This document shows positions 3,720-59,315 of a stretch of 64,000 nt of DNA, piece by piece. Both the position numbers and the translations under genes were made by a program. A model generated the notes under the pieces. The model was not told the origin of the DNA and searched no databases. It saw only the letters and a program-made list of their open reading frames with translations. Positions within the stretch are counted from its first letter, which is position 1; each line of letters starts with the position of its first letter. Origin of the DNA: Utricularia gibba (taxonomy: Eukaryota > Streptophyta > Magnoliopsida > Lamiales > Lentibulariaceae); contig CM007989.1 in the NCBI GenBank assembly GCA_002189035.1, positions 2,170,001 to 2,234,000 of the forward strand. Direction: 5' to 3'.

Positions 3720-5717
3720 TCACTCAGAGATAGAAGAACTGAGCATTGTGGGAGTACTGAGAACATCGAGTGGAAGCTTCTGCTGCTGCAGGAATTTGTC
3801 TTGCTTCTGTTGCTCAGGGATAGAAGAAGACGATGATGCTATACGGTACTTGTCTTGTTCCTCAGGTGTTGGCCAGTATTCAAATCCTTTTCTGTTGGTT
3901 ATCCACAAGCACGAACCTGCCTTCGTTTCATCGCAGATCAACTCCATAGCCCCTGCAGTTTCAAACTCCAGGCATTTTTCAGATCGAACACGAGAAAAGA
4001 ATAAGGAAATTCTGTATTAGTTAGTTTCTTTGGATCACACAGGCCCAATACTCCAGGCCCACTTCATAAATCTTTTTTTTTTGGTACAAAAAAAATAAAA
4101 AAAATCACATATCCACAAGGTGAAAAGGGAATAGATAATTTTAACCCCCAAAATAACACATGCCAATTGAGAACATGATTCAGTTCTTCCCTTTGAAAAT
4201 CAAATTCTGGGAATCAGATGATTTTTTCATTCCAAGGGGGTGAGAGCACATGCATGTCTCAAGGCCCACAGAAGAGATCTCGTATGTCCTCGGGACTGAG
4301 GGAGGACCCCCACCCTTTATTACACATGCTCCCAGATTGTAAGTATCTCATCATATCATATCATGGCATTCTATTTCTATTTCTATTTGGGTCGTCTGTG
4401 TAAAAAAGAAAAGCAGATGAAGGAGATGGCGCAGTGCTTACCCTTTACCACCATCTCCATGGGGATGAACCCCCGGACATTCGAACGACCTCGGGATCCA
4501 TCCTCGCCGCCAACTCCGTTTGCACAAACTGCAAACCCCATTAAATCAAAGCCTTCTGAAATGGAACAGACGACGAGTTGTATTACCTCAGGGCAAAGGG
4601 CATTCACGCGGATTCCCTGACTCTTGAAGAAACCCAACGATCGAGTGAAGAGCACCACGCCGCCTGGATTATTGTACATGTAATCCATTTAACACTTACT
4701 CGTCTGGTGGAAATCAAGGATTCAAATGATTGGTTTTCCAGGGTGAAGAAGTGTGTGATGTTTCAGCATGTGCCATCCTGCTTTACTTAAACATCATCAA
4801 AGTGGGGAAGAAAAAAAGAATGTAGCTGAAAATGACGCAGGAGAGCAAAAGGAATCGAAGACATTACTTTCCTCACAGCTGCCCATATGGAATGTGGGTG
4901 TGCGTCAACTCCAATTCCCAAGAAATAATTTTTTCCCATTAAGTTAAGAATGATTTTTCATTGTAAAGTATTTGTGCCTGGATTTACATTTTTAGAGACG
5001 TAACTCCACAACATCTAAAGAGCAAACCTTTGGATCCGGAGTATATGGGGTCGGCATCCATGGGATACAGCCCGGCGGCAGAGCCTACGTTCACGATCGC
5101 ACCAATTTGTTTTCCTCGCATCATTGCTGCGATCTGTGCACACGCATGCTAGGCAAATAAAGCAGAGAAAAACCAGAGTGTTTGTGAAGACAAATAGTGT
5201 GGATGAAAAGGGGAAGTGACCGCAAGACGAGTGGAGTCGATAACCGCAACAAAGTTGACGTCAATGGTGCGCCTCCATGTGGTGGAGCCATCGCTCGGGT
5301 CCGCGAAGAAAGGAATGCGGGTGGCGATCCCCGCGGAGTTGATGCAAATGTCGAGCCCGCCGTGAGTCTCCACGTGTTTACCGAACGCCGCCTCCAGCTC
5401 ATCTGAAACATTTCATCAAACATCTGGCGTATATCGTTTGCTATTCGTTCGTATTCAAACAGGATGCTGGGAAATAAGTAAAACTGACGTGGGTTGGTCA
5501 CGTCGCATCTGATGAACAGCGCCAATGGCCTTCCCAATCCTGCATGAAACTTGAGCAGCTTTTCTTCAGCGAGCGCCGCCGCATCCTTGCCCCTGTCATC
5601 GCAAGAATCGACAATCGTCACGAAGATCCCCTTGTCGGCGAGAGATAAAACCAGGGCTCTCCCGATCCCGGATGCTCCTCCGGTGACTAAAGCCGAGAGT
5701 CCAGGCCGAATCTCCAT
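3720..5717 (-). CDS. Classical short-chain dehydrogenase/reductase, frame broken in exon 5
   Basis: Exons (minus strand): 5717-5489, 5402-5221, 5133-5028, 4663-4587, 4528-4442 and 3952-3720. The Rossmann motif TGGASGIG lies at about residues 12-19, the NSAG motif replaces the usual NNAG, and the catalytic pair is Y-S-G-S-K with an upstream Ser in VGSAAG. The last exon reads NRKGFEYWPTPEE, typical of plant SDRs annotated as 15-hydroxyprostaglandin-dehydrogenase-like; the real substrate is unknown. In exon 5 the frame is lost at a run of five G (about 4475): as written it stops soon after MSGG. One further G would give the family sequence FIPMEMVVKG, and the exon sum, 914 nt, is one short of a multiple of three. 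So this is either a consensus error or a young null allele. Apart from that the gene looks complete at about 304 residues. Confidence 0.85.
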
Positions 5718-7164
5718 TCTCCGATGACTTCAGACTTTGCAAGTCCACGTCCCTAATCCTCCAGTCCCCCCGCATTAAATAAATACAAGGGATGTTCCAA
5801 AGGCATACCAACCAACACACAGGATCGATCGAACAATATGAACTCATCCGCTAATGGGATGGCCCCACCCCCATTAATAAATAAGATGGCTTTTCTATCA
5901 TTTAAAAAAAAATTATAATTTATTAAATTGTTTAAAAATTCTAATTTTTAATCTAAATTTAAAATTTGTAATTAACTTCAAAAATGATTAAATTTATTGA
6001 ATATCTGTTTAAATAATTAAATAAGATATTAAATACAAATACTATAATATATTTTTTTATCTATTATAAAAATATATTTATATTATGTATTTACTAAAAA
6101 ACACGTACTCAATAGCGTACATATGTACTTAAATGCATAAAATAAACATATCAAATATTAGAATACTAATTAACTATGGGGGATAGCCTTATTAATTATT
6201 AGTTGTTAATAATAACTGCATAGCCTCACAGTTAATTATTATTTACAATTCAAAGCTTACATTTTCCATGAATTTGTTTTGATTAAGACATCTATTAATG
6301 GGCGTAATTATATTTCCATAGAATCTATCAAGCAAAAAAAAGGATATTGTTTATTTAATATATTGATTTCGCGGAAAAGCGAAATAATCGACTCAGAAAA
6401 TTGGCCACCGGTGGGTTAAGTGACGTGTGGTTTAGTTTGATAAAATTCTATCCTCAGAATCACATGTGCCAGCAAAGGGGTGATTATCACGTTTATTAAA
6501 CGCGCCCCCAAAGTAGATTCCCTGATTTTTTTTTCTTTTAAAAAATTCTGTTGGACGATGAGGACTTTTTATTAAAAATAAAAGTTAATAAAATCTGAAT
6601 AAATTGTCCCAGGAATTGGGTCAATTCTATTTTAATCTGAACTACATTTTCAGGCCCCAACAATCTAGAAATAAGTATTTTAAAATCAATTTTGTTGTCG
6701 ACTAACTTTAAAAAAACATAAAAATCTTGAACTACTTTTAAACAATTGTAAAATATATCAAATAGAACCTTAGTTCATGAATGGTGGGAGTTTATTTTTA
6801 TCTACTCCCATGATGGAGGCATCGATGCACATGCACTTGGTTGGGACATGATGGAACCTTGAAGAATGTGATATGGAAGCATAAAAGGGTGGAAATTAAA
6901 AGGAACTTTATATTATTCAAATAATTGGTGTATTTGAAAACACCAAATGTCTAGTTTTAAGCATAAAAAGGATGAACTTAAAATGGGTTGTGGTTAAGAG
7001 GAGGAAGGGTGAAGAGCAAGCAAATGGCGATAGGAACATGTAACTGCTGAATCACTAGCAAGATCCCCATGTCGGATGGGGCTCTTTGCTACGACAAGAA
7101 GAATTGGGTGAGTCTATGACAATTATTGATCCTCAACTAGAGAGGGGTATCTGTCTCCTTGGTC
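5718..7164. other. AT-rich intergenic region, no gene seen
   Basis: About 1.4 kb between the dehydrogenase start and the DJ-1 stop; both genes are on the minus strand, so it contains the dehydrogenase promoter and the DJ-1 3' UTR. Apart from about 150 bases at each end it is very AT-rich. I see no conserved reading frame, RNA gene or clear repeat. Confidence 0.5.
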
Positions 7165-9230
7165 CTATAGCCTGGGGCACTCGTAAACAAGCCCTTCAGC
7201 GACACTCCTTGCTCTGGCATGCCCAAACAGCTTACTCACAATGGTGAGTGCAAAATTTGTTGCAGTTGAAAGTCCTTTGCCGGTGATAATTTTACCGTCG
7301 ATTACCGTCTGGGTGCCTCTCACTGCACCGGTGAGCTCGCCCACAACACGGGGATGAGCTGTTGCTCGCTTCTCCTGTTTCAATGACAACAGACCACTTC
7401 GCTTGTTGTATCAGTCATTTTTTGTAGGTCTCCTGAGTTTTAGAGATTTCTTACCTTCAGCAATCCTTCTTTCTGCAGAATGGCCGGGGTTGAACACATT
7501 GCTCCCAATATTCTACCACCTGATTCCTGATCCTTTAGCAACTTTTTCAGTATCCTTGACTTGCCCAGCCTCTCTGCACCCCGAGTTCCTCCCTAAACAG
7601 GCTTCAAAGAAATCAAATAAGAGAGTTTAAGAAGATGGTTCATACAAGGTGAGTTGTAGAAGATTTACTGTGAGGATTATCAGATCATAGGTTGAATCTG
7701 CTACTGCACCAATCAATGCATCTGCAACTATGTTTACACCGTTGGATGCTGAAACCTGCAGTGACTTCTCGACTGAAGCTACTGAGACGTTTGCTTTTGC
7801 TCTCCTTAGAATATCAATGATAGTCACCAGTTCAGTCTCTTCAGAACCATTAGCAATGGGGATCATGACCTACAACATTTGCAAGACTATGAAGAGTTAG
7901 TTCATTATGTCTAGTATTGATTTATCCCAAAAACAAATGTCAAAGACTTCTGCAAACCTTTGGAGTATGTTCAAGCAGCCATGAAACCTCGTTGAATTCT
8001 TCCCTTTTGGTTTCGTCTTCTGGGGTGCTTAGAAGCTACCGAAACAACAAGAGCAGTTCAGCATCATCCATCCAACTTCGCAAAAAACACACATTTTTTT
8101 ACCATATCATTGCATATATCCACTGCTGATGGCTCACCAAATAACTGCTCCACCAGTGAAACAGCAAACTCAAAACAAGTACCGGGGCCTCGACTAGTTG
8201 TCAGCTCTCCCGAGACTTGTAAATTCGATTTAACAGCCCAGAAAGTGGGCAGCTTGTCTGTGAAGGCCGGATGACAAGTTGTCTAGGAGAAATAAACCAT
8301 CCCATCAAATTGAAACGTGGAGTCCATTCATGCATAAGTGAAACTGCATGAATCCAAAGAAACTACCTGTTTCCTTCTCAGTAATCCCCAGGGCAGAAGT
8401 GTCACGGCTGGAGCAGACGAAATCGCGCTGTACAATCTCTTCTCCTCAGCCTGTTTGGTCGTGATTTGTTGAAGAATTTTGCAATCTCGAAGGCGTGCAG
8501 AACCTGGCATGCCCCCCTGTATAGTACAGATAATCGATTCAAATAGCTCATCCTCCCCCCCCCCCGAGTTTTTCTCAAATTTCATATAGGTCTCTTACGT
8601 AAAGCAGAAATGTTTGTGAATCTGATACCCTATATGACAAGTACAAAAAGTTTCATTCTTAATCCTGAATCAATGGAGCCCATGCTCAAAACCATGACTT
8701 GACTTGGTTCGATATAAGAGCAATGTGTTGGTGGGAGAAGAGAGGGTTAACAAAATGCTTACCGGTAACGCAACGAGGTCGAAAACCTCTGCTGAACAAG
8801 ACGAGATGAACTCATCAGCCACAAGTGTAGTTCCACCAGAAGCCTCAACCTCCAGTTGCTCCTCCACAGAGGCGACAGTCACTGACGCACCGGCACGCCT
8901 CAAAACGTCGATCATTATCACCGCCTCCATCTCTTCTGTGCCAAACCCAATTGGAACCAGAACCTTCAAAGCTGAAGAAGTCTCAACAGAAGAAAAAAAA
9001 ATCGGAGCACGCAAAATTGAAATCGCAGAATGGTAGTTTTACAGAGAAATCACCCTTTTGGTGGGGTTCACGCCCTTGTTTTGCTTCGAAGTGCGACGTT
9101 TAGGAACCGGCTTCTTCTGGGTGGCAGGAATTGCGATTTCTGAAATTGAAAAACGACATCCATTACCAGAAACGGCCGCCGGAGTCCGGTGAATCGGCGC
9201 CAGGAACACCGGAGATAAAATGGTACGCAT
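7165..9230 (-). CDS. DJ1C: Tandem DJ-1/PfpI-domain protein, plastid DJ-1C type
   Basis: Eight exons, all in phase 0: 9230-9054, 8981-8763, 8516-8367, 8282-8103, 8035-7958, 7869-7669, 7592-7455 and 7374-7165, giving 450 residues. The first about 60 residues are basic and hydroxylated, like a plastid transit peptide. Two DJ-1 domains follow: the first starts [15 protein letters not shown] and the second [15 protein letters not shown]. Domain order and the end ([20 protein letters not shown]) match Arabidopsis DJ-1C, needed for chloroplast development; biochemical activity of that class is unclear. The nucleophile-elbow Cys of DJ-1 is Ser in domain 1 (AISSAPA) but Cys in domain 2 (AMCSTPA). The start is the first ATG in frame. 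The gene diverges from thioredoxin m. Confidence 0.9.
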
Positions 9231-9420
9231 CCTTTTGCGATTCCCACTGTACTTCAAAACACCTGCTTACCGTCCCGCCATAAGAACAGCAGGAAAACCG
9301 CAAGCATTTCACGAGGCCTTATCCCCTGATCTTAGCAGTTCCACTCCCAACTCCATTAGCCTAATGGGGATTACCGACCCGGCCCGTACATTTTCCTGTG
9401 CCGCTTCAAAAATCAATAAC

Positions 9421-9485
9421 TGGGCCCAATCAAATAATAATTTATCCCCCAATAAAATCAGCATGGGAAAACATTAAAACCCTAA
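9421..9485. promoter_or_regulatory. Site II palindrome and telo-box between DJ-1C and thioredoxin m
   Basis: The 623 bp between the divergent start codons at 9230 and 9854 contain TGGGCCCA at 9421-9428, a site II word readable on both strands, and AAACCCTAA at 9477-9485, a telo-box. Both motifs are bound by TCP and telobox factors in plants and often occur together in promoters of organelle and translation genes. Use by both genes is inference. Confidence 0.5.
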
Positions 9486-9853
9486 TTTTTTATTTTGCAA
9501 ATTGAAACAATAATTGATGTTTGTGTTCAATTTTTCCAATTCATTTCATAGAAACCTTTCTCAAAATTCACACAAAAATAAAATAGAATAAAATAAAAAT
9601 ATGGTTAGAAGGACAAGGGAATGCCTGTTTTGGAATCGGGTAAGGTGGTCCATTTCCTGGCCCGCAGGCCCCAGGAAATGTGGCTCTAGGGTCAGAAAAA
9701 TCCACACGTGTGTTATTCTCCGGCTTCAGCTACCCGAAGGCCGTCCGTTTACTTTTAAGCTTTGAAAGATTCAGACAGAGGACGATCAAGCGGGCTATGA
9801 AGGTTTGTCGGTGAGAGATTTTTCTTATTTCTTTGATCCTGAGTGACCCATAG

Positions 9854-10924
9854 ATGGCTATTTCGTGCGGCTCCGCATTTCCCCTTTCGCTTTCCTGCAC
9901 GCAGCGCCGTTGTTACCGGATAGTATCAGGGGTGAACGCCTCTAGTCTTCGACGGCCGACCCACCGATGTGGGTTCGCATTTCTTGGGGAGAAGAGGGCC
10001 CCTGTTGCCAATTTGGTGCTGGTGTCCTGTTTTGGTGATCACGCGAGTGAGTACCCGTCACCGATTCTTTGGATGATTTTATGATTTTTTGCCTTTGATG
10101 CCCGATTGTTTGAAATCGATTCTATGATTGTAATCGGTTGGATTTCCGTTCTGATTGTTTTTACCGACCGGTGAAAAAATGCCTTTTATGTGTTTGCTGC
10201 TGCATTGCCTGACTCTTCACTTTGTATATGTTGTCCTCGAGTGCTCACTCAGGGGATTCTGCTTCAAATGGGTAACATGGCGTAATGATCCAATAAACCC
10301 TCTTGAACAATTTTGCATCTTTTTCGTTTCAAGGTTTTGAGATCCAATCAAGCCTCCCTTTTCCTATGTCATCCATCATTGTTCACAGGGGCTTGCTCTG
10401 TTTCTCCCGTGAATTTCAGCTTTCTAATAACTTGGTGAATGCAGAAGAATCTGTTATTAGATTTTTCTGTCTGTAAATGTCTAAAAGAAGGTTGGATTAT
10501 CTTGTATGAACTTAGTAATCTATCATGGTGAGATGTTCACTCCCCTACAACTGCTCATATTACTGTGAAGTTCCCTCAAAAAGTTCTGTTCCCTGATTCT
10601 GCAGCTCCAACAGTCACCTCCAAATCATGGGAGAAGCTCGTCTTGGAGAGCAAGGCGCCGGTTCTAGTGGAGTTTTATGCGCGTTGGTGTGGCCCCTGCC
10701 GTATGGTTCACAGAGTGATTGATGAGATCGCGACGGAGTACTCAGGGAGGCTGAAATGCTTTGTCATCGACGCAGACAAAGACTTCAAACTCGCAGAAGA
10801 GTATGATATCCAAGTTGTTCCGATGGTGCTGCTGTTCAAAAACGGCCAGAAATGCCATTCTATTCTTGGAACCATGCCGAAACACTTCTATGTGGACGCC
10901 ATTGAAACTCTTCTTGCTCCATAG
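9854..10924 (+). CDS. TRXM3: Chloroplast thioredoxin m, closest to m3 type
   Basis: Two exons, 9854-10046 and 10605-10924, give 170 residues; the intron splits codon 65. The first about 60 residues are rich in Ser, Arg and Ala, and look like a plastid transit peptide. The mature part carries the redox site WCGPC at residues 92-96 within [12 protein letters not shown], the cis-proline region [11 protein letters not shown], and ends near ETLLAP. Wording such as [13 protein letters not shown] resembles Arabidopsis thioredoxin m3, linked to redox control and plasmodesmatal traffic, more than the m1/m2/m4 group. The enzyme reduces target disulfides in the stroma, fed by ferredoxin-thioredoxin reductase. 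No frame defect was seen. Confidence 0.9.
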
Positions 10925-11986
10925 ATTTCTCTTCTTTTTTGTCTTCTCATTTTGTGGCCTCGCCGTGTTAATGCTTGTTTTCCGATCTCCCTCTCTGACC
11001 TTCTGACGAACACTTGTCTTGTGCCGGCCACTTCTGAAAAATAAACATAGTATATTTTATATCTCACCCGCAATATTAAAATATTAGTATTAAATATGAT
11101 GATCTAGTGATTAAATTAATGATATATTTTAATAAGTTATAATTTAAAATATGTATATTGTATAATTAAAATTATATTTGATACATAAATTTAAGTCTTC
11201 CATATTTTGATATGAAGATCTTGATTAGAGAGCAGATTTTCTCAGATCGAAGGGATGATCTCCTCCTCATAGATACTGGTTTTGGTGTTTGTAGCCCCTT
11301 CTTTGCATCCGCATTTCACGATCACCGTCTTCGATCATACCTTTCTAGCGAGCCCGACATTAGGAAGTGTTGTGTGTTCTGTTTTAGTTTAAAAGTACTA
11401 GAGGAGGAGCGATGTTCTACAACCGATCCACATCGCCGTTCGGGTCCGCGGGTTTGAAGAACTGACGTTCCCGATTGAACCAATAAAAATAAGAAACGCT
11501 TATCCGACGAGTCTTTACCACCCGCGGTTATGCGGGGTCTTCAGGTTAGGGCTTTTTCAGGGTTTTTTTTTTGTTGTTGACCAGAGTTGGGATTCTTGAT
11601 TTCCTCTTGTCAATGTATTGTTTTTTAGAGGATTTTTTTTGTGAGCCATTGTTTTCATTGTCTGTGAGAACATTCGATCAGGATATTGGGTTCATGTGAC
11701 TTGCTTCCATTTTTTGTGATCATTGGCAACAATGTTAGTAAACATTTGATGGAAACACAGTAGGGTTTCAATTAGAAAACATGTTTATTTAATTATCTCT
11801 TCAATGATTGTATTGGTGCCTCATGTTGCAGTTAAACTGTAGTTTTTGTTGTATTTTGGTTGCTCATTATGTTGCTTTGGACCTGTTATTTTATTTCAGA
11901 TTACACTCTTCCCTCATTCTTCGATCAGTTAAATTGTTGTGACAACGATAATTTGGGTAACCAACGAACTAATTAATGCTTGGAAG
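10925..11986 (+). other. 3' UTR of thioredoxin, promoter and leader of the NYN gene
   Basis: An AT-rich stretch (about 11080-11210) separates the two genes. A likely leader intron runs from 11545 (donor after CTTCAG) to 11899 (acceptor TTTCAG), inferred from splice signals only. Splicing it would create a 15-codon upstream reading frame beginning at ATG 11530, ending TAA at 11930-11932, ahead of the main ATG at 11987. Confidence 0.4.
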
Positions 11987-13249
11987 ATGTCGAACTGTGA
12001 CAAGTCTATGCAGCAGCCAGTAGCAGTTTCTGAATGCACCCACAGGATTGCAAGTGAAACGGAAGGGCCAAATGTAGATCCTATGAAATCATCACATCAA
12101 ACATTGGGACAGCTGCAGGGACCATTAGCCATTTTTTGGGACATTGAGAACTGTCCAGTTCCTACTGATGTTTGGCCCGAGGATGTGGGCAGTAACATCA
12201 GGACGACAGTACAAGGGGATTGTTTTACTTCAGGAACAACGATCACTGCCTTTTCAGCTTATGGGGATTTCAGTTATTTTTCTAGGAAACTTAGAGAGGG
12301 TTGCCAGAGAACTGGAATCAAGCTTGTTGATGTTCCAAATGGCCATAAAGATGCTGCTGACAAAGCCATCATGTTGGACATGCTTCTCTTTGCAATGGAT
12401 AACCGTCCTCCATCAACTATCATGCTTATTTCTGGAGATGTTGATTTTGCTCCTACGCTCCATGTTTTGAATCAACGTGGATACACGGTTATTCTTGCTA
12501 TTCGTGCAGGTGCTCAAACCTCATATGCACTGAAGAATGCTAGTCGATTTGTCTGGGATTGGCCTAGTTTGGCTCGTGGGAAAGGGTTTCTGCCTCCTTA
12601 TGAGCATTGTCCTCCATTTACATGTGCAGCTGAACTTTCTGGGCATCCTGTTAGATATCAGGCCAATGAGAAGAGACATGTTGTGGCTCATGCAGAACCA
12701 ATGGAGCTTAGCGAGTTCTCATTTGCACCATCTCAACTCGAGTATACTAGACCATACTTCAACCTGGATGCTGAAGCTGGCCATTCAAGCGCTTATTTCT
12801 CAGAAGCATCAGCCAGAATACATATTTCTGAAAACGAAAGCAATGTGCTATGGATGCAGCCTAGCAATCTAAATAACCTGAAGGGTAGGCTTGTGAATCT
12901 ACTTGAATTCTCAGGTCATATGTTGCCTTTGGCCCTTATTTCTGTAGAATATTTAAAGATTTATGGGCATCCTCTTTGTGCTTCCGACTATGGGGCCAAT
13001 GATCTCATTCATCTTCTGGAAAAGATGTCGGATACTCTCCTGATAGGAGGCAAAGATGAATACAGAATCGTTTATCTTCCCTGGGCGAGAGACAAAAGAG
13101 GCCAAGTCCCAAACCAGATGCCATGCGAGACAATGACAAAGAAGCAACGTAAAGAAATGATGAAAACAACAACCCAAAAAGTAATGACAAGAAAGCAGCG
13201 AAAGGAAATGATGCAAGCACTCAGAAATGCTGGTGCAATGCCATACTGA
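11987..13249 (+). CDS. NYN-domain (limkain-b1/MARF1-type) putative RNase with LOTUS-like C-terminus
   Basis: One uninterrupted exon encodes 420 residues from the first ATG; the open frame extends upstream but without ATG. The NYN core starts at about residue 46 with LAIFWDIENCPVP, where the Asp and Glu are the usual metal ligands. It continues through HKDAADKAIMLDML and TIMLISGDVDFAPTL to SYALKNASRFVWDW, all standard for plant limkain-b1-type proteins. Residues from about 300 (NNLKGRLVNLLE to the GKDEYRIVYLPW region) resemble an OST-HTH/LOTUS domain, which binds RNA. The tail holds repeated KKQRKEMM-type basic stretches. The fold predicts an endoribonuclease; targets and location are unknown. 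Confidence 0.85.
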   Translation: MSNCDKSMQQPVAVSECTHRIASETEGPNVDPMKSSHQTLGQLQGPLAIFWDIENCPVPTDVWPEDVGSNIRTTVQGDCFTSGTTITAFSAYGDFSYFSRKLREGCQRTGIKLVDVPNGHKDAADKAIMLDMLLFAMDNRPPSTIMLISGDVDFAPTLHVLNQRGYTVILAIRAGAQTSYALKNASRFVWDWPSLARGKGFLPPYEHCPPFTCAAELSGHPVRYQANEKRHVVAHAEPMELSEFSFAPSQLEYTRPYFNLDAEAGHSSAYFSEASARIHISENESNVLWMQPSNLNNLKGRLVNLLEFSGHMLPLALISVEYLKIYGHPLCASDYGANDLIHLLEKMSDTLLIGGKDEYRIVYLPWARDKRGQVPNQMPCETMTKKQRKEMMKTTTQKVMTRKQRKEMMQALRNAGAMPY

Positions 13250-14305
13250 GATTGGATAGCAGAAATGGATTCAGGTATTCCAGCAGCGAAAGGAAAGATG
13301 TTTTGATGAGTGTGATTCGAGCTTCCATCAAGAAAATATGTCATTCATGATATGTCATCCTGTCTCATTATCTCCGAAGCCTCATCTTATCTTGTTGGAG
13401 GCTCCAACATCTTTTCATCAAAACATCTTTCTTTGCGCTTTCTTAATATTCAGCATTTTGTTGTTGTCTTGTGGTTTCTTTGGGAGTTGTTTCACCCTTT
13501 ACATGGTGTAGTGGTAATATGGCTTTTTCCAGATCTTTTTTTATTGAGAAACATGTTCCTTACTAAGGCTTTGTTTTGTTCTGCCTTAGGATGCGTGCAT
13601 TCTAATACATGACTTGGTTGTTCATCAAGACGTATTTTTATAAATGGAATGAGAAGATTCATAAGAGCGCCAGTACTTTTCATCAAATCCAAAAGAAACA
13701 AAAATAACAAATCGCGAGGTGAAATATCTCAGATGCATACACATGTGTGTATCTTATGTTACTGCTTTTATGGAATGGATCATATTTTTCTTTTAATTTG
13801 TTACTATTCAATGTGGTAATATAGAAAAAGATGGAGTAGGAGCTTCTAGCAAGTCCTCTGGTGAGGAAATATGGCTATTTTAGTTCATAATTCACAACTA
13901 TTCATCATATCCAAACCAATTTCAAGAATGAGCTTGAAGAGATCATGGTTACCTAGCTTCCTCTGCGCGGATATTTCTTGGTTGATTTGAGGCGGTATGC
14001 CAGCTGAGGTATAAGCAGAGAGCTGACTACTGATCGCATGGATTGGTTTTACGTGAGATAGAAACTCTGGTCCAGTTACCAGGTGACCCTGAAAAGTTCC
14101 TTTATCTAGAGTGAATGACTGATTGAGGTAGTTCAGTTATGGATGGTTTTTAGACATGGAATATGTTAAATATATGCATTGCACTTTATGGATCCGTTTC
14201 CCGAACTCAAGGCATGCTTCCTTTTAGTTCCAAACAATGTGTTCGACAAGAATACAAAACAAGCTATCCAAGTGTTTCTTTTAATGTGCACTCTCAGCTC
14301 AAACA
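13250..14305. other. Convergent spacer between the NYN gene and the receptor kinase, no gene seen
   Basis: About 1 kb of 3' UTR and spacer, AT-leaning, with a T-rich stretch near 13430-13560. Small reading frames have no recognisable family. No RNA gene or repeat was identified. Confidence 0.5.
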
Positions 14306-20576: not shown

Positions 20577-21446
20577 ATGAAGTCCGCCGCGAAATTCATT
20601 GTCATTCATCCCCGGCACACAAATCCGGCGCCGGCATTGCCGCATACCAACGCGCGGTGCTGATGGTCATAATCCTGTTCTTTGCATTTGCCTTCTGTTT
20701 AAGCCTCTACACCACCGGGAACAGAGGGACGCCCTCCGGGAGAGATGATTCGCGGCTCCCGGGATCTGTTTCAGAGGCCCTTTTACACTACGCGACGGAG
20801 AATTTCACTTCCGTGAAAAGCCGCATGTCTCCCTCCGAGGTGAAATACACGGCGGATGTGCTCCGGCGGTGCCCGCGGCCGTGCAATTTACTTGTTTTCG
20901 GGCTGACTCACGAAATGCTCCTCTGGAACTCACTCAATTTAGGGGGCCGTACCGTTTTCGTCGACGAGAGCGCGTATCTAGTTTCCAGATTGGAAGAGAG
21001 GCAGCCTTCAATTGAAGCGTACGATGTGCATTACTTGACGAAAGTGGGGAGCTCCAAGATTTGATTCAGCATTACAAGGCGGAGATCGGCGGCGAGTGTC
21101 GACCTGTGCAGAATCTCCTCTTCTCCGATTGCAAACTGGCAATCAACGATTTGCCAAATTACGTATACGACGTCGCATGGGATGTGATTCTTGTGGATGG
21201 GCCACGTGGCTACGACGACGAATCCCGGGTAGGGCGCCGGCGCTGTTCACCGCTGGCGTACTGGCGAGGAGTAAAAAGTACGGCGCCTCCGCTACCCACG
21301 TTCTGGTTCATGAATTCGACAGAGAGGTAGAGCGCATTTGCAGCTACGAGTTTCTCTGCCGCGACAATCTGGTGCAGATCAACGAAACCCTGGCACATTT
21401 CGTGGTCGGCGGATCATACCCCGCCGGGAAACTCGGTTTCTGTTAA
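20577..21446 (+). pseudogene. DUF579 IRX15/IRX15-L-like xylan protein with two or three frame breaks
   Basis: Single exon. Family sequence is readable almost end to end but in three frames. The N-terminus MKSAAKFIVIHP (from 20577) resembles IRX15 starts. A hydrophobic anchor (ILFFAFAFCLSL) and the core CNLLVFGLTHEMLLWNSLNL follow in the next frame. [19 protein letters not shown] and [11 protein letters not shown] are in the second, and [19 protein letters not shown] to the end in the third. Breaks fall near 20660, 21053-21058 (GCTCCAAGATTT) and 21224-21230 (TCCCGGGT); each is repaired by one extra base. If translation starts at ATG 20663 the first break is not needed. IRX15 proteins are Golgi membrane proteins required for normal xylan in secondary walls. 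Conservation around the breaks suggests a sequencing or consensus fault as much as a dead gene; about 261-290 residues if intact. Confidence 0.8.
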
Positions 21447-37531: not shown

Positions 37532-38933
37532 TCAATATGACTGGAGTTTGCTGCCAGCAACGTCGATAACGAACCTGTACCTAACGTCATTCTTCTCCAA
37601 TCTCTCCATTGCAGTATTCACGTAATCCATCTTCACTGTTTCAATGGTGGAAATGATCCCTTTCTCATTGCAGAAATCAAGCGCTTCCTGCGTCTCCTTC
37701 ATGCTCCCGATGAAGCTCCCTGTTATGCTCCTCCTCCCTGCACCCAAATTCACCATTACCCACATCAGGGAAACCTCGATTTTGGTAGTTTTCTACGAGG
37801 AAATCGAACCCAACTCACCGAGCATCACCAACGGAGAAATAAACTCCAATGGCCTGTTGATGACGCCCATCAGAATCAATTTCCCGTCCACCTTCAGCAA
37901 TGTGAGGTACGGGATCAGGGGATGATGAACTGGGATTGTGTCGATTATGTAATCGAAGGACTCGGCGAGCCCCTCCAGTTTTCCGGCATCCGAGCTAAGG
38001 ATGTAATCATCGGCACCCAAGTGATCCAATGCTTCTTCTCTCTTCTTGTCGGATGAGCTGATAACCGTCACATGGTGGCCCAGGGCCTTCGCGATCTTGA
38101 CACCCATGTGCCCAACACCTCCGAGGCCAAGGATGGCGCCTCTCAGGCCACTTCCGGTGAGGTTGAAGTGGTTCAAGGGGCTGTAAACAGTTACCCCTGC
38201 ACAGAGTATAGGTGCTGCTTGCTCTGGATCCATCCCTTCTGGGATCTTCACCACGAATCTGGTTAAATAGGAAGTCTTTGTTGGCTTGAAGATCACAACG
38301 GAAAAAGAAACAGACAGAGCTCAGAGGAGAAATTTGCTTACTTCTGATTAACAACCATGGCATCGGCGAATCCCCCATAGTAGGCTTCCATCGGAGTAAA
38401 CATCGTTGTAGGACCAGATCTTCTTGCTGCAGTATTGCTCAATCTCCGCCTTGCAAGGATGGCAGTTGTTGCAGCTTCCGACGATGCAGCCGACTCCGAC
38501 GACATCTCTGGCCTTGAAACCGGTGACCTTCGATCCAACTTCGATCACCTCTCCGACCACCTCATGCCTATGAATCACATCAACCACACCTCTCAGCCCG
38601 GTTATCATATCAGAACATCAATCCAAGATTAAACAATTACCCGGGAACCATGGGGTAATTAGACATGCCGAGATCGTTCTTAAGCTGGTGAATATCAGTG
38701 TGACAGATCCCACAGCAAATCACCTTCAGATAAACGTCTTCATCCCAGTATGCCTGTCAATCGACACCACAAACAAGAAAAAGGAATGATCCACCTCGAT
38801 CAAAACAAAAAAAAAAAACAGAGAATCCACAGAAGTTGCCTCACCTTAGATCGTACGTGAACGGAGACAGGACACCAGAAGAGTCCCTGGCAGCCCAGCC
38901 CACGGCCTTCCTCTCCGTTTCCAAACTCCCCAT
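37532..38933 (-). CDS. CAD: Cinnamyl-alcohol-dehydrogenase-family protein, frame broken in exons 2 and 3
   Basis: Exons: 38933-38845, 38753-38641, 38567-38342, 38258-37819 and 37737-37532; about 358 residues if intact. Zinc-enzyme features are clear: catalytic zinc motif CGICHTD, GHEVVGEV, and structural zinc Cys residues in [14 protein letters not shown]. The NADPH-binding motif is GLGGVG, and the end is [19 protein letters not shown] to DVAGSKLQS. The sequence fits bona fide lignin CADs, which reduce hydroxycinnamaldehydes to monolignols in the cytosol. Two places lose frame. Exon 2, at GGG 38744-38746, needs one base to give R-H-T-G-D-E-D-V. Exon 3, at about 38371-38382, is two bases short of the family spacing before GGFADAMVV. 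As written the protein is not translatable; see the frame-break finding. Confidence 0.85.
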
Positions 38934-42947: not shown

Positions 42948-42990
42948 CACGTATGGGGGCACTTCTGGGTTCGAACGGCAACTAGTGTCG

Positions 42991-48881: not shown

Positions 48882-49029
48882 TTTCTCTCGAAAATCCTAA
48901 ATTCAAAATTAATATCGCGAGAATTTCCCAGCCGGAGACGATTCTCCGATCCCTCTGAAGATTCCAGATCGGTGAAGAAGGCTTGAAACTTCGTGTTATT
49001 ACTGGAAATCAAATTTGAGGGATGAAATT

Positions 49030-49109
49030 TGGGCCTTATTACTGGGGCAGAGGCCCATTACCCATTTGGGGAGAAAAAAAAAACGTTAACCCCCTTGGGG
49101 AAAACCCTA
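49030..49109. promoter_or_regulatory. Site II pair and telo-box in a 259 bp divergent promoter
   Basis: Between the starts at 48881 (-) and 49141 (+) lie TGGGCC at 49030-49035, GGCCCA at 49052-49057 (the same word on the other strand) and AAACCCTA at 49102-49109. This combination is typical of plant promoters for mitochondrial and translation genes, and the opposed site II words suit a bidirectional promoter. Confidence 0.6.
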
Positions 49110-49140
49110 CTTGGCGATAGCGAGCAAAACCTCTGCAACA

Positions 49141-49535: not shown

Positions 49536-51372
49536 TAATTTCTTTGTGAGTGACGATTATTGCCATCATGAAGGCACCAGTGTTAGTTTCATAGGAGTAG
49601 ATCATCTTAAGCTCTTGTTTATTCCATCTTTCAATTGATTCCAATAATCTTCCTGCGAAACAATTGGCCGTAAGTGTACATTTCGATAGACTGATGTGTG
49701 GTAGCATGGGACTTATCCGTTGCATGAATCTTCAATTTTAAGGATAGCCTTCAACTACACTTTAATCAAGGGGTGAGTCATTAGGCACTCTTTTTTTGTT
49801 ATCATGTTCAATGTGTGGAGTTAACCGAGTAAATATGATGCTTTCCACCCTGAAGTGTTTGAGTTCACTTTTGTCTTGTTAAGCTGTAGGCATGTCTACG
49901 TTTGTTTCCACTACGGCAGTCCACTTGCTAATTATTTTACGATGGCACACCATACACTAGAGATTCATATTCTGTTCATATTATCACCTCGTATTCTTGA
50001 CTGGCATTTGATGCTACTTCAAACTTTTCGTTTCCCCAGGCACTTGAGCATATTGTTTTGTTACCTTCTGCTATCAAGTCTCAGTGAACAGAGGATTATG
50101 CTGTGGTCCTATTCCATTTTATTCGGGCAGAAGTGAAGGTTACAGGGCAACCATAATCCTGATCACCAGGTTGTTCTTTTGCTGCCATCCCTTTAGAATA
50201 GTGCCCATTTCCGTGTTACATCTTACAACCTGAGCATGCTGTCTACCCTTATCACCATCACTTTTATTTGTTCCTCTAGTAGATTTTCCATATAGCTTCA
50301 TGGAATTATGTGCTCTTATGACCCTTAAAGCATATTACAGAGAATGAACACCCCCTCTATGCCTTCCCAATTCATGTCATAATTTTATCCTGAGGCGCAG
50401 CAGCTACATGTTTCACTAGTTTTAGGACCTAGAAAGAACACTCGACATAGGGATGGAGAGAGAGACTGATTTCATCATGGACTGCTGGTGGATGTGTACA
50501 TTTTTGAAGTTGAGTGATGCTTAGGGACAGAATAAAAGTTGCGGCTGGTGTGGCTGAAGGATAAAGATATGTTAATCAAGTGTGGGGCGGGGAGATGATA
50601 AGGCTTTGCGATCTTTTATCTTCTTTACGTAAAGCATGTTAAAAGTCGATCCAGTCAAAAGCCATGACGACATCAGAATCTCAAATATCAACAGCACAAA
50701 CAACTCTCATGGATGGATGGATGCACATGCACCCTCTCTTTTTCCCTTGTCGAAGCTATAGGTAAACCCACAACACTCAGCCTCTCTATAGTTAAACCTA
50801 CGTACGACCCATGCTTCCTTCTACATGGAGAGTGCATAGTTGGCTTCCGGATGCTCTTCTTCCTCTTGTACCATGGTGTATGGTCATCATGAAAAGGAAC
50901 ACACCATATGCTGGGGGTAGTGGCACCAGTGAGGGAGGAATCTGGAGCCACTATCTCCAGCATTTCATTATCTTGCTCCTTTTTTCCCGGACCAATGAGG
51001 GCATGTTTTTTTTGAACTGACAAGCTTTTGGGGAGGGTAAGACAGGGTCCTGAGATACAATTGAGAGATAAACACTCAGACATCAGGGTGGTTCAATGAG
51101 GATGATCAATCGGTTGATCGAATTCCCCATTGGTTTCTGTCATAAAACCTAAGCAGATCAGGAAAAGCAACAATAATCCAAAAGGAGGAACAAAGGGGAG
51201 AAGGAAAAAAAGTATCTGGGGTGATGTAATGGGGAGCTACAATCTTATGATAAATAAAGGCCTTCAGCCTTCAGGCCTAATTTATTCAATAGAAGGAACC
51301 AGTTGAAGTTGATGTATCGGATAAGGAGGAGAAGGGAGAAGAATCTATTATTCCAGAGGGGCATTGAGGCAA
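49536..51372. other. Spacer and possible alternative 3' exons of the NFD6-like gene; promoter of the zinc-finger gene
   Basis: About 1.8 kb of balanced composition, less AT-rich than other spacers here. It may include downstream introns or alternative exons of the NFD6-like gene and a long leader of the zinc-finger gene. Frames at 50688-51083 (-) and 50811-51020 (+) overlap and match no family. Nothing else seen. Confidence 0.4.
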
Positions 51373-52002
51373 ATGAAGTATGTCGTCACCATTCCCCTTG
51401 GTGGGGGCACACCAAACAAGCCCTATTTATTCAGCTTTACGCTTCATGAAACAAGTTTCAGGAAACAGACCATGATTCAGTCAGCTACTCCCTTTCAACC
51501 AGCAAGAAAAGGGGGAACTATGGCCGGTGATCAACAACCTACTCCACAGAGCTCTGAGGAATGGTTAAGTCTCAGACTGGGGAGGGAACCATCACAAGAG
51601 TCAGAGAGACAGTCAAGGATTACATCAGCTAGTGTATTTTCCTGCAACTTCTGCTTGAGGAAGTTCTACAGCTCACAAGCTCTGGGAGGACATCAAAACG
51701 CACACAAAAAAGAGAGGGGAGCAGTTAAGCAATACCAGACGCAGAAAATGATGGGAATGGTGCCGATGTATGGCACCACGCCGAGATCACTAGGAGTGCA
51801 CGCTCATTCCCTTGTCCATAAGCCACCAAGGATCGCTCCAAGTTCAAGAGGTAACAACACAAGAGTTGGAATGTTATGTGAATCCAGCAAGCTAGAGAAA
51901 GAAGCAAATACCTTGTGGCCTGGAAGTTTCCGAGTAGGTACCAGAGAACAAGAAGAAAATCCATGGAATTCAAATGCACTTGATCTAAATCTGAAACTGT
52001 AA
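51373..52002 (+). CDS. Single C2H2 zinc-finger repressor with EAR motifs
   Basis: Intronless frame, 209 residues from the first ATG; an ATG at 51520 (MAGDQQPTPQ) would give 160 residues and may be the true start. One plant C2H2 finger, FSCNFCLRKFYSSQALGGHQ then NAHKKER, has the QALGGH signature (C-x2-C-x12-H-x3-H). EAR-type repression motifs lie at both ends: EEWLSLRLG before the finger and LDLNLKL at the C-terminus. Such proteins are nuclear and recruit TOPLESS co-repressors. The layout resembles the ZFP1/3/4/7 and KNUCKLES group, which acts in trichome, organ or ABA responses; the exact orthologue is uncertain. Confidence 0.87.
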   Translation: MKYVVTIPLGGGTPNKPYLFSFTLHETSFRKQTMIQSATPFQPARKGGTMAGDQQPTPQSSEEWLSLRLGREPSQESERQSRITSASVFSCNFCLRKFYSSQALGGHQNAHKKERGAVKQYQTQKMMGMVPMYGTTPRSLGVHAHSLVHKPPRIAPSSRGNNTRVGMLCESSKLEKEANTLWPGSFRVGTREQEENPWNSNALDLNLKL

Positions 52003-52328
52003 TTAGCCTAGTACGAATCACTCAAAGCTAGTGGCATTCAAGTTGCCGCCTCTCCTCTCCCATGAGACCTGCAAATAATTTAGAGGATATTGTAGCATAC
52101 ATTACAATATTCCCTTGCATGGTTCCACTTTCCATCTATCTGTACATCCTTCAACATGACAAATCTAACACAAATTAACCTAGCACGTATTCAGTTTCCA
52201 CAAACTAATAAAACACAAAGCTCCATTAAAAATCAATTATACATTATTTACCATGGAAAAGCTAAACTACATGATCAACAAGAACTTCGTTTACAAATCC
52301 ATGTCTTCTTTTATGTTACATCATAATC
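52003..52328. other. Convergent spacer between the zinc-finger and TIP41-like genes
   Basis: 326 bp of 3' UTR sequence, AT-rich, with no reading frame or structure of note. Confidence 0.5.
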
Positions 52329-54315
52329 TTATGAGATTATCAGCTTCTGGGTCTTTCTGGACATGATTGGCAGCATTTCACTGACAACGCCAGGATCACT
52401 ATACGCAGCAGAGTCAGTAGGAAACCCTCTCTGCGACAAAAGAGAACAACATCAAGGGCTGCACTTTGACACACGTACTTTCTTCACGGATAGAGTAGAT
52501 TAACTCACGGAGGCAAGGAACGGAAAAGTAGCTTCTCTCCAGGATATTTCACGAAGAACAATTGGTTTTACAATATCACTGAAAGTGCAATGCATACGAG
52601 TGTCCCGCAATCTGAGAAGTACTCCATCGACTCTCAGCTATAAAACGATATCAATATCACTTTGACAGCAAAACATGTTTGATAAAGCATTCCAAATAGA
52701 CCCACCCAGAATCGCAACAGAAGAAACCATCCAGATGGCATGACTCTCTGCAAAAGCACAAGAATGAAAACAACGAAACATTATCCACCGATCATTTTTC
52801 CAGTCAAACAAAAATAGGGGCATACCACTTTCACTGTCAACAAAGAAATCCCGTTGTCAGCTAGTTCATCTTCATATAGTATTACCTGTTCAAAGATTGA
52901 AATGCAGAACATGCACACACGAAAATACGGGGATTAGTTGCATCCACATACCTAACTTTTTAGAAACTCTACAGTGAAATGCACACTGGCAAACCTCATC
53001 ATAAAAGAGAATGGGCTCTTTTGCAGCCAATGCAACCATATCAATTTGCTCTGAACAATCTTCCCAGCAAGCATTGCTAAATCTCTCGCCATTGTTCTCT
53101 CTTCCAGGCTAAAAACAAATAATCCCTTACCCCAGAACTCAAATGCAAATATTAAGTGAACAAGCAGGACAACTCCCACGATACACAAATCCAACATGCA
53201 TGTTTGGTGGTTCAGGAAGAGGATAATTAAACAGGCATGATTACAAGGTGAAAAGCTCAATGGTGTAGAGGATATTAGCACAATTAGCCATCACGTTCAC
53301 CTACAAAATATACGCTGAACTGAAATTTTAAATAATCCGAACCTTAATGTTTTCCTGGATACATACACTTCCACTGTAAGGTGTTGTAAATGTGTAGTCA
53401 TAATCCAATATCACCTGGTCAGAGGGCTTACTGCAATGTAGCACACCAACTAAGAGTATGCACCACAAGGTTTCAAGATTTTACTTTGATACCGTAACAG
53501 ATGACAAAAAAGAAACTTTCATTGGCTAACGCATGTTAATCATAGATCCGCGCTAAATTGTGTTGATGCTGGAAAAATAATCATATGAGGCTTGAAAATT
53601 GAATGCATAAAACAATTAGTCTCGGCTTCAATGTATCATAACAAATTATCACCATAGTTTGGTATGATTCGAAGCATCTAATGTAATATTGCAGAGACAC
53701 ATGAAGCGAATGCATATTTTTGAAATTTTCGTTTTTTAAAATTCTAGAGACATGCTACAAGGAAAACTGCAAACACAGAGAGGGGTGAGGAAAACTGAAA
53801 ATACACCTTCTAAATTTCCACACTGCAGCTGCCGGGACTTCAACTGGTGGTAGGGCTTCTTGCTTCCAGCCACAAAGTGCATCATATGCATTGAAACTTA
53901 AGTTTATACCACTGCTCAAATGCTTAAGAACCAAATAACTCTCCCCGAAAATCATCTCCGGAAAATGGGATGTCTGAAGTTTCGCCTCCCACCTGAAAGC
54001 AAATACCCAACGTAACACCAACCATTTATCCTTCTCACCCATCAGGTAAGGAGTAACTAAAACCCGTAAAAAAAAAAAAAAAAAAGAGTTGATGAGGAGG
54101 GAGATTAAACTATCTCCCACAACGCACAATCGAGTCCGATCACTGCAGAGGTAAGGTAGGTGACCAAGGCATTACCGCTGAAGCATAGAAGAACTGAGGA
54201 TCGGACGCTTCCGAGACTCAATCTCCCAGCCGCGAATAACAAATCCGATGCGCCCACCTCCCAGAGGCTTCGCACCAGCGGCCTCCCGTTCCTTCTCGTC
54301 CCCCTCATACTCCAT
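52329..54315 (-). CDS. TIP41L: TIP41-like protein (PP2A/TOR pathway regulator)
   Basis: Eight exons: 54315-54176, 53992-53807, 53430-53367, 53108-52995, 52885-52826, 52747-52706, 52637-52509 and 52430-52329. They give 278 residues with a closed frame. Family landmarks are IRGWEIESRKRPILSS, LQTSHFPEMIFGESYLVLKH, NAYDALCGWKQEALPPVEVP, KPSDQVILDYDYTFTTPYSG, EPILFYDEVILYEDELADNG, RVMPSGWFLLLRFW and LRVDGVLLRLRDTRM. TIP41 binds PP2A catalytic subunits with TAP46/Tap42-type partners and affects TOR signalling; in plants TIP41-like is widely used as a stable reference transcript. Site II words lie upstream at 54443-54448, 54459-54464 and 54499-54504. Confidence 0.95.
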
Positions 54316-57300
54316 CGATACCTACTCCCGCCACACGATTCGCCCGTCAGTTCTCTTTGAATCAAAAAGAAATCTTCACCGCGACACGAGCGGCGATTTC
54401 TCCTAGGTAGAGTGAGTGAGTCGAGTGATTCTTTCTACAAAGTGGGCCATGGATCTGAAGCCCAACAACGTAAACCCGTTGCCCACCATTTTCAGTGGAG
54501 CCCATTAAACAAAGTATTTTCCTTTTAAATCATCTCAACAGCCTTTTTATGGAAATTAAAAATAAAAAATAGAAAGCACAACCAGATCTAAAATCACTTT
54601 TTTACTAAACTTTTAAACAATTCAAATTACAACACAAACAATTCTACATGATTAAAAATTATTGAATCTGATTCAATATATTATTAAAATAATTCAATTT
54701 AAATTTATTATTAAATCAAATAATAGATTCAACTCCCTTTTAAAAGGTGGAAGTAAATGATCGTATATGTGTGTTTATGTAATACCTCATACTTTTTTTT
54801 ACATGATATTATCTTTTTCGAATATTCAATCTTCATAATTTTACATTTTTTTTCATACCTTTAAGTGTTTTCTCAAAATTTCATTCATCTTCACTTTATT
54901 TCATTACAACCAAAAACATTTAACTTTGGAGTTAATATCAATGATCCTTCATCATATTGGGAAAAAAAAACTTTGTACAAAATTTATGTAATTATTCTAG
55001 TCAATCCCATTTTCTTCACATAATTAACCAAACGGGGCATCACAAACATGCGTGTAGCGGGCACTGAAAACATGGAGAGAGGGTAAAACGGGAATTTCGT
55101 TAGTCCTTGAATACGCGGTCCTGTGGGTAGCGTTTGGGCAAGAATTTCGTTTGCCTTCCACCTTACGTGATCATTTCTGTGGCATGTCACGTCCTCTCCG
55201 ATTTTCAAGCTTAATTAGCACGTGTTTTTTATGTTTAACGCACGTGGCTTCATCACCTTCGAATGGGAGTCAAACTGTCTTGTAAGGACGGTGATTAGTC
55301 ATCGGTTTTTAGGCCTCACTTTAGAATTTGGACTCAGTTGGAGTAACAATTACATCACCTTAAAGCGGAAAAATAATCAATTCCTGTCTTTTTTTAAAAA
55401 TTCCTTCAATAATTGATAAATGCGCAGGAGCCTATCACATTTAAAATTACACTGCCCTAGTAAAAAAGAAAAAGGATGAGGACGACAGAACTTAAGGGAT
55501 GTTCCCCAAATCTCGACCCCGATCATTTTTCACGTGCCTCGAGTAGTCTTTTATCCGATAATTCCTAAAAAAAATAAGCCAATAATTTATATTCATGAAT
55601 ATAATATTAAAAATAGTAAGATAAGGGGGGAATTATTGCCACCCTTGTCCCCAAGTTTGCAGTGCAATAACAGTTCATCGTTTGTGGACCACTTATTATA
55701 TATAATATATCATTATTGTTGCCTTGGGAAATAGCCCATCCACGATCATGTCATGTATATGCCTCTTGGAAACCGTTATATACTTTTTCAAATGCAATAA
55801 TGGATATTTTTTTTAGGCCCAGTGATATTAAGCATCCCACATTGATTATGGAAGAATGAGTTGATATACTTAGATAAAGATATTCTTTTAATCTTACATG
55901 AGACATTTTTCATAAAAGAATAAAATGTAAAATCGTGAGAATTGAATATTCGAAACGAACAATATCATATAAGGTAAGTGTAGGTCGTGACAGCATGCCT
56001 TATTGCCTAATGGTTGGTTTCATTACACGAATGTTGTCGAATTATAAGAGTTATTCACTTGGTGTAAATTACAACGATGCGTGGAATCCGTTGGACAAAT
56101 GCTTTGGGGTGAAAGGGACGATGTTGTGAGGTGGGGCGCATACGAAGAAGTGCATTCATGTCCTTGTTCCTCCCCCATCAACCTGTTTCCTGCTACATGT
56201 CTATCTCGTCCACCACATTTTGTACTTTAGGGTAAAATTAGGTGGACAGAAATGGGGTCATTAGCTAGCTAATAGCTACTATGCATTTAAGATAATGAAT
56301 GCAATTATGTTAAGTAGCTCAAAAATGCCAGCTTGATTACGTGGTGGACCCTTAAAGAACAAGCCAACCACAATTTTGGACCCATTGAGCGTGCGATTCG
56401 GCTCGTAGGACACGTTAAATACTCTTCTTTTTCTTTTTTAAAGTAGGCTCTATTAGGGTTTGCGCCTTTGGGACTTGAGGAATGTATGTGATAAAAATAG
56501 ACATTTTATATATAAAAATTTGATCGTAATATATGACCACTTTTCGAAATAACTAGGGATTTAAGTGACTGTTCCTCTCTCCCTTGTATTAAGCTTTTCT
56601 TCTTATTGTTCTTTCAATCGTGTATGAGAAGAGTTTCCCTCGTGGACGTACTGCAAGAGATGGAACACAAGCAAACTATGAAGGTGTGGGACTTGAGGGG
56701 GGATTCTTCTTCTGCTATTTACGAGTTTATCCTTGGGAAGAAACAAGTTATTTACAAAAATGTCATTAGTACACTTTTTATCATATATTAAGTTAAAAAT
56801 TTTACATTATAACTATCTAATTTTATCACATAATATCTGACACAGCGATATTTATAATTGAAAAAAACAGCACACCCTGTCCGGGGCAGTTGAAGTTGGT
56901 GTGGAGGCATACAGTAGCGGCCGCTGGGCACTGTTGGGGTGGTCCTCCGACTTTACCCGGAAATGGCCGGCCCAAAGCTCGTGTCTTTTTTACGTGTCCT
57001 TGGCCGGACCCCACGTGTCCCCAAGATCCGATACCAGATTAGACCTCTGCGGGGCCCATCATCCCCCATCATCCCCCGTTCCCACCGTACACAATAATTA
57101 CCAGATTACCCGTCTTGACTTGACCCCTGTCTCTTGTCGTTCGTAATCCTTTGAAATTCCGAATTTGACCAAGTCCGCGCCTCCTAATTTCTGTAATCTA
57201 CTTAACTAACGTACTCCAGAGTGTGGTCCCCACCATGACGCACCACGTGGTGGTTTGTGGTGCGACGGGCGCCTCTTGCTACCTCTATTTATACCCCTCC

Positions 57301-57370
57301 CGCGCCCCCACACACCAACGGGAAAATCGTCCTTGTTTCTCTCTTAGCTGTCTTTCCTTCTGCTCCTCCA
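54316..57370. other. Divergent intergenic region: TIP41-like promoter, AT-rich core, GH3 promoter
   Basis: About 3 kb. The proximal 200 bp hold TIP41-like site II words. 54520-55000 and 55540-56840 are AT-rich with no gene. The last about 500 bp before GH3 are GC-richer and contain several ACGT cores and an auxin-response word (separate entry). Small frames at 55222-55416, 55935-56129 and 56606-56791 are not recognisable. Confidence 0.5.
57128..57293 (+). promoter_or_regulatory. GH3 promoter with AuxRE, G-box and TATA box
   Basis: TGTCTC, the canonical auxin response element bound by ARFs, is at 57128-57133. A palindromic G-box, CCACGTGG, is at 57243-57250, with further CACGTG-like cores near 57011. 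TATTTATA at 57286-57293 is placed as the TATA box, about 78 bp before the ATG at 57371. The set fits the auxin-inducible behaviour of GH3 genes. Confidence 0.6.
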
Positions 57371-59315
57371 ATGGCGGTGGAATCAATACTAGCGTCTCCG
57401 ATGGGGCCGCCACCTTGCGAAAAGGACGCGAAGGCGCTGCAGTTCATCGAGGAGATGACTCGCAACGCCGACGCCGTTCAGCAGCAAGTGTTATCCCGAA
57501 TCCTCTCCACAAATGCTAAAACAGAGTATCTGCAGAGATTCAACCTCGACGGTGCCACTGATCGCGAAACCTACAAGTCCAAGATTCCTATAGTGTCCTA
57601 CGACGATCTGCAGCCGTTTATTCAAAGAATCGCCAATGGCGACCGTTCGCCGATTCTTTCTGCTCAACCTGTCTCTGAATTTCTTACCAGGTAAGAGAGC
57701 TCCGTCGAGAAATTAGGTTAGTGGAAGTTGATTTTTGTAGGTGTTGCTTTAAGTAAAATTCAAATTTCTGTGTGCCAGCTCTGGAACTTCCGCCGGCGAG
57801 CGGAAGTTGATGCCGACGATCAAAGAAGAATTAGACCGGCGGCAGCTTCTCTACAGCCTTCTTCAGCCGGTGATGAACCTGTGAGAAGAAAAACACCATT
57901 ACGTAATCTCAGGATTTCTCAACGCACTCTGTTCTAAAGCTTTTTTTTTTTCGTTGCACCAGATACGTGAAGGGGCTTGACAAGGGCAAGGGGCTTTACT
58001 TTCTGTTCATCAAATCGGAAACCCGAACCCCCGGCGGCCTCCTCGCCCGCCCCGTCCTTACAAGCTACTACAAAAGCGAGCATTTCAAGACCCGCCCCAT
58101 AGACCCGTACAATATGTACACCAGCCCCAATGAGGCGATCCTCTGCCCCGATTCATTCCAGAGCATGTACACTCAGATGCTCTGCGGCCTCTACGAAAGG
58201 CACCAAGTACTCCGCGTCGGCGCCGTCTTCGCCTCCGGCCTCCTCCGCGCCATCCGCTTCCTCCAGCTGCATTGGCCCGAACTGACCCACGATATTCGAA
58301 CCGGGTCACTCAGCCCGCAGATCACGGATACATCTCTCTGCGACTGCATGACCCGGGTCATGAAACCCGACCCCCGCCTAGCTGACGAGATTGCCAAGGA
58401 ATGCTCTAAGGATAACTGGGAAGGGATCATCACCAGAATTTGGCCCAACACGAAGTACCTGGATGTGATCGTCACCGGCGCCATGGCTCAGTACATTCCT
58501 ACACTTGATTATTACAGCGGCGGGTTGCCTAAAGCGTGCACCATGTACGCCTCGTCGGAGTGCTATTTCGGCCTCAATCTGAATCCGATGTGCAGCCCTT
58601 CGGAGGTCTCGTACACCATCATGCCCAACATGGGGTACTTCGAGTTCCTCCCCTGCAACGGCCACTCCGCCACTACAGACTCTCACTTGGTGGACCTTGC
58701 GGACGTCGAGATGGGGAAGGAATACGAGCTTGTCATCACGACGTACGCCGGTCTATACCGTTACCGGGTCGGGGACATTCTCCGGGTCACCGGTTTCCAT
58801 AACTCAGCGCCACAGTTCCAGTTTGTTCGCCGCAAAAACGTCCTCCTGAGCATCGATTCCGACAAAACGGACGAGGCGGAGCTGCAGGCCGCCGTCGAGA
58901 GCGCCTCGGTTCTTCTCAAGGAGCACGCCACGACCGTGGTGGAGTACACGAGCTACGCCGATACAAAAATGATCCCCGGGCATTACGTCGTCTACTGGGA
59001 GCTGCTGGGGGAACACCCAGCGGTGACTGTTTAGAAAAATGCTGCCTGGCAATGGAAGAATCGCTCAACTCGGTGTACCGTCAGTGCCGGGCCGCGGATC
59101 ACTCAATCGGGCCGCTGGAGATTCGGGTGGTGAGGAACGGCACGTTCGAGGAACTGATGGACTACGCCATCTCCAGAGGCGCGTCGATTAACCAGTACAA
59201 GGTACCCAGATGCGTCAGTTTCGCGCCCATCCTCGAACTACTCGACTCCCGAGTCGTGTCCACGCATTTCAGCCCGTGCCCGCCGAAGTGGACGCCGGAG
59301 CGACGCCTCTCATAA
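57371..59315 (+). CDS. GH3: GH3-family acyl-acid amido synthetase (IAA-amido type), one frame break near the end
   Basis: Three exons, 57371-57690, 57779-57880 and 57963-59315; 591 residues if one base is restored. Readable motifs include [15 protein letters not shown] (the phosphate loop, across the first junction), [20 protein letters not shown]-region [15 protein letters not shown], and [16 protein letters not shown] (the Y-x-x-G-D nucleotide motif). The end is [17 protein letters not shown] and [20 protein letters not shown]. It resembles group II GH3 enzymes such as GH3.1, which join IAA to amino acids with ATP. At 59029-59032 a run of three T should be four: as written the protein ends after residue 497 (EHPAVTV) and loses about 94 C-terminal residues, although those remain well conserved in the next frame ([14 protein letters not shown]). 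Confidence 0.92.

Follow-up and report, generated by a model that had tools for sequence, protein, structure and literature searches.

One-sided frame breaks at G/C runs in four conserved Utricularia gibba genes as probable long-read consensus errors

Introduction

Four conserved genes within one 64 kb stretch of the Utricularia gibba genome assembly (C1:2170001-2234000, the whole stretch of DNA analysed here and hereafter the window) lose their reading frame. This raises the question whether the plant has lost four genes or the assembly has lost a few bases. An earlier note on this sequence had favoured the latter, proposing long-read consensus error on the strength of one-sided losses and homopolymers. 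The published PacBio assembly of the species was produced with HGAP at 88x and has a contig N50 of 3.4 Mb in 581 contigs (PMC5793159); the assembly searched in this study comprises 100,091,633 bp in 516 contigs.

Results

Frame breaks in the window

In order to place the breaks in the GH3, DUF579 and cinnamyl alcohol dehydrogenase (CAD) genes, a protein-to-DNA aligner tolerating frame shifts was written and run with relatives taken from this genome or the PDB as references; the break in the short-chain dehydrogenase/reductase (SDR) gene was placed by eye. Seven breaks are found over the four genes, six of them net -1 and one net -2, and in each gene the similarity to the family continues immediately in a different frame, as had been described before. 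Genes and breaks are located in the window as follows.

3722..5712, minus strand: SDR gene, multi-exon, one net -1 break (adh_short match; intact paralogue exons in L035)
4470..4474, minus strand: G5 run (C5 on the plus strand), net -1 break of SDR (read by eye; paralogue L035)
20577..21446, plus strand: DUF579 gene (IRX15/IRX15L/GXM family), single exon, three net -1 breaks (PF21729; alignments with L011 and L013)
20610..20613, plus strand: C4 run, net -1 break 1 of DUF579 (frame-aware alignments)
21046..21049, plus strand: G4 run, net -1 break 2 of DUF579 (three references concur)
21224..21229, plus strand: CCCGGG, net -1 break 3 of DUF579 (references L013 and L020)
37541..38933, minus strand: CAD gene, AtCAD5-like, two breaks (alignment to AtCAD5, 2cf5; GT-AG introns)
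38744..38746, minus strand: G3 run (C3 on the plus strand), net -1 break of CAD (frame-aware alignment)
38372..38385, minus strand: net -2 break of CAD, placement ambiguous, stretch including a G5 run (38372-38376) (frame-aware alignment)
57372..59315, plus strand: GH3 acyl-amido synthetase gene, one net -1 break in the last exon (PF03321, PF23571, PF23572; paralogues L002 and L003 intact across that exon)
59007..59011, plus strand: G5 run, net -1 break of GH3 (references L002 and L003; alignment with PDB 4b2g)

All seven breaks lie within or next to a G or C run of at least three bases. The indels are of one sign only (-1 or -2), with no +1 break in the window, and nonsense substitutions apart from the shifts are not seen, the stop codons in the frame-aware alignments stemming from the shifts alone. 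The earlier statement that no added base is needed is correct at all six -1 sites; for CAD, the -2 break can formally also be written as +1 with one codon lost, the family length being kept by -2. Among the positions given previously, those of the SDR G5 run, of CAD 38744-38746 and of DUF579 21224-21229 stand, whereas those of GH3 and of the other two DUF579 breaks are shifted. The assignment to short homopolymers is borne out for G/C runs, the one T run (in GH3) being wrong. In protein and DNA searches of the assembly each window gene is found once at 100% identity, and no second independent copy appears. Other long genes of the window, described earlier as closing in frame, appear so in the open-frame list, for instance a PPR gene of 606 aa and a UGT gene of 533 aa.

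The GH3 and SDR genes

The GH3 break had been assigned to a T3 run at 59029-59032. Comparison with the paralogues L002 (84% identity) and L003 (80%) puts it about 20 bases earlier, in the G5 run at 59007-59011, since the residues that follow this run already belong to the second frame. The dN/dS ratio against the paralogue is 0.099 overall and 0.114 after the break, and the two intact paralogues give 0.12 against each other; selection on GH3 is thus unrelaxed on either side of the break. Since dN/dS would not yet register a very recent real mutation, any single break could be true. The window copy has 38 unique amino-acid changes versus 7 and 22 in the paralogues, a point against an intact gene, although it is also the outlying one of the three compared. 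A further GH3 copy on C505 was listed as frame-broken in the match table, but contains an ordinary GT-AG intron at that point in the sequence.

The SDR gene retains the conserved TGxxxGIG motif. Its paralogue L035 (C1 at 218930) is unbroken at the corresponding point and reads ...MFGGYIPMEM...

The DUF579 and CAD genes

PF21729 matches the DUF579 gene in two frames, at profile positions 2-71 and 129-189; PF04669, tried as the plant DUF579 profile, was the wrong accession. The break previously put at 21053-21058 is located in the G4 run 21046-21049, and the one marked as possible at 20660 does exist, at the C4 run 20610-20613. The dN/dS of the gene is 0.17 and its conserved VDGPRGY motif is retained. 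A duplicate on C321 carries a -1 break of its own, which lies in a C4 run away from the break sites of the window gene.

A repeat of about 690 bp was found in at least eight places (L014-L018, at about 1267-1956 of the matched strand, as well as L012, L019 and L021), with copies on C3, C328, C414, C4, C304 and C451 that are 94-99% identical. From the 5' half of a DUF579 gene it includes about 400 bp, which are 87% identical to L011 and contain stop codons common to the copies. Its ends are imperfectly inverted, and direct flanking repeats of about 8-10 bp are present in some copies; both features suggest a Mutator-like element with a captured gene fragment, of the Pack-MULE kind, that would have spread recently.

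The CAD gene, of the bona fide type, shares 207 of 278 residues with AtCAD5 (2cf5) over the aligned part (74%) and retains the zinc-binding cysteines and histidine. The second CAD break, placed before at about 38371-38382, is confirmed as a net -2, its exact place within approximately 38372-38385 being ambiguous.

CAD and DUF579 both function in secondary walls. Real and recent pseudogenisation of some or all of the four genes would fit this common role, lignin (CAD) and xylan (DUF579) being less needed in a rootless aquatic plant, and would also fit the absence from the assembly of a close second copy of CAD, the next best match being only 50% identical. Furthermore, deletions are commoner than insertions in natural pseudogenes. 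On the other hand, GH3 and SDR have no link to secondary walls, stops arise from the shifts only, and neither relaxed selection in GH3 (dN/dS about 0.10 on both sides) nor loss of conserved residues in CAD (metal-ligand motifs intact) was found. The other DUF579 copy is broken too, at another G/C run, and HSP70, GRAS and KCS genes carry the same one-sided breaks at such runs. Pseudogenisation is thus a very improbable explanation.

The same fault elsewhere in the assembly

Profile searches of the assembly with the KCS, GRAS, HSP70, UGT and BAHD families split many genes into two matches that adjoin or overlap but differ in frame. Among the touching or overlapping junctions of these families, 17 exact -1 offsets and no exact +1 offset are counted, a bias beyond chance; junctions of KCS genes offset by some +70 to +95, which probably are introns, were excluded from this count. 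From 18 stretches fetched, 16 were aligned with the frame-aware aligner, L087 (an intron) and L080 (unscored, intron-like) being left out. The 16 aligned loci contain 19 shifts: 17 of -1, one of +2, which modulo 3 is the same as -1, and one of -2 in a poorly matching copy. Over the approximately 146 kb that matched in four families the rate is about one break per 7-9 kb, which is a lower bound because breaks near match ends escape detection, and it varies among families. The breaks are therefore general to the assembly and occur on many contigs, whatever the function of the gene.

With seven breaks in a coding length of roughly 20 kb (a rough estimate), the window exceeds this rate, as would be expected if the fault were confined to low read depth around the window and were not a property of the assembly as a whole. 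Detection in the window is more sensitive, however, so that the excess is modest, and breaks of this kind also occur on many other contigs, which makes a purely local fault unlikely. The framing of the breaks as a matter of four genes in one window was consequently too narrow, the window being only modestly richer in breaks than the remaining assembly.

Several other observations were made along the contigs. A tandem array of KCS (3-ketoacyl-CoA synthase) genes at C413:4945000-4998000 comprises intact, partial and stop-bearing copies. Two adjacent HSP70-like genes at C1:2259939-2268247, some 26 kb downstream of the window, are matched in several pieces with in-frame stops, which may reflect introns, decay or further missing bases. 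The lengths of the contigs C1 (8,500,000), C2 (6,192,500), C409 (2,492,500), C505 (3,452,500) and C507 (642,500) are exact multiples of 500 bp, which is perhaps a trace of windowed consensus processing.

Sequence context of the breaks

Within 18 bp of the 24 break sites the longest G/C run has a mean length of 4.0 bases, compared with 2.24 around positions drawn at random from intact coding DNA of this genome (50% G+C), and none of 5000 control draws reaches 4.0. A/T runs near the break sites do not differ from those at control coding positions. One break in L079 and one in L084, as well as L074, are accompanied by G/C runs of one or two bases only. In base counts inspected for a depletion of long G/C runs, the run-length ratio starts at about 0.25 and drops to 0.16 for lengths 6-7, but on counts too small, and with no reference, for this to be used as evidence.

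Six GRAS genes shift frame at one common profile position, in a Gly-Gly-Pro-Pro stretch with C5-C6 or G4 runs. At first this resembles conservation, and it would speak for a correct genome sequence in which G/C runs provoke programmed frameshifting or slippage of the transcript. The exact site and base nevertheless vary between the copies and most other GRAS genes are in frame there, and the GH3, DUF579 and SDR paralogues are likewise in frame at the break sites of the window. A conserved or programmed GRAS site was therefore rejected, different G/C runs being affected in different copies and L080 looking like an intron, and such frameshifting has a negligible probability as the general cause. 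Recurrence at a G/C-rich stretch is instead as expected from a run-dependent error. It is just as hard to credit that the genome sequence is correct, with G/C runs truly shortened in many conserved genes and the frame restored at the level of RNA or translation.

Redundant contigs

Missing bases are directly shown by C316 (38 kb), which duplicates a locus of C412: over about 9.8 kb the two differ by 13 indels, all of them missing in C316, and by about five substitutions. Since several of the missing bases are A/T and they lie largely near the contig end, this pair documents missing-base error in general and not the G/C type alone. C241 and C304 were considered as a second redundant pair, but here, unlike in C316 and C412, substitutions exceed indels (16 versus 2 in 3 kb, 99.4% identity). 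The HSP70 loci on these contigs, L066 (C241) and L067 (C304), share a +2 offset between their matches; with the 16 substitutions this gives them the look of sequences that may be alleles, a recent duplication or paralogues.

Discussion

Taken together, the seven breaks are very probably consensus errors of a PacBio continuous-long-read assembly of the HGAP/Quiver type, in keeping with the earlier proposal. This reading is based on the -1-only pattern across the genome, the G/C runs, the losses between C316 and C412, the selection on GH3 and the error type known for HGAP/Quiver. One base, occasionally two, would have been dropped from the consensus, nearly always within a G or C run; the reads would be expected to contain the missing bases, and the four genes are very probably intact in the plant. 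Because the same one-sided fault recurs throughout the assembly, we strongly infer, as distinct from directly proving, that the breaks are ordinary assembly artefacts and neither features of the genome nor a biological event.

The breaks in the four genes would accordingly have no biological consequence, and their importance lies in the use of the assembly. If breaks occur about every 7-9 kb in conserved coding sequence, truncation or splitting could affect approximately one in ten gene models. Where gene loss, pseudogenisation or a 'truncated' protein is claimed from this assembly alone, a check against reads or cDNA would then be needed, in the way that DCL3 was checked by 5' RACE (PMC8333044). 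The one-sided signature, -1 only and at G/C runs, offers a simple screen for such errors.

Residual indels in long-read assemblies are a general problem according to Watson and Warr 2019, as cited in PMC9985148. The closest parallel is a bacterial genome assembled with HGAP v3 and Quiver from P6-C4 data, where short reads introduced 205 corrections, 'nearly all' in G or C homopolymers (PMC4832174). As in the present case, the residual errors of that PacBio RS II consensus are single-base indels almost wholly in G or C runs, and they stay in the consensus until polishing with short reads. The rate appears higher here, with about one error in 7-9 kb of conserved coding DNA versus 205 in 7.2 Mb at 262x, and, unlike in that study, the errors are known from the side of the coding sequence alone. 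The bacterial long-read case of Kastor (PMC12007338) is similar in that mostly false deletions after short homopolymers were found via related genomes, but there the deletions, in a bacterial assembly, come after A/T runs more often than after G/C runs. A lost frame in a recognisable gene is also the mark of true processed or unitary pseudogenes. In contrast to these, the window genes show neither mixed indel signs nor nonsense codons beyond the shifts, and selection on GH3 is not relaxed.
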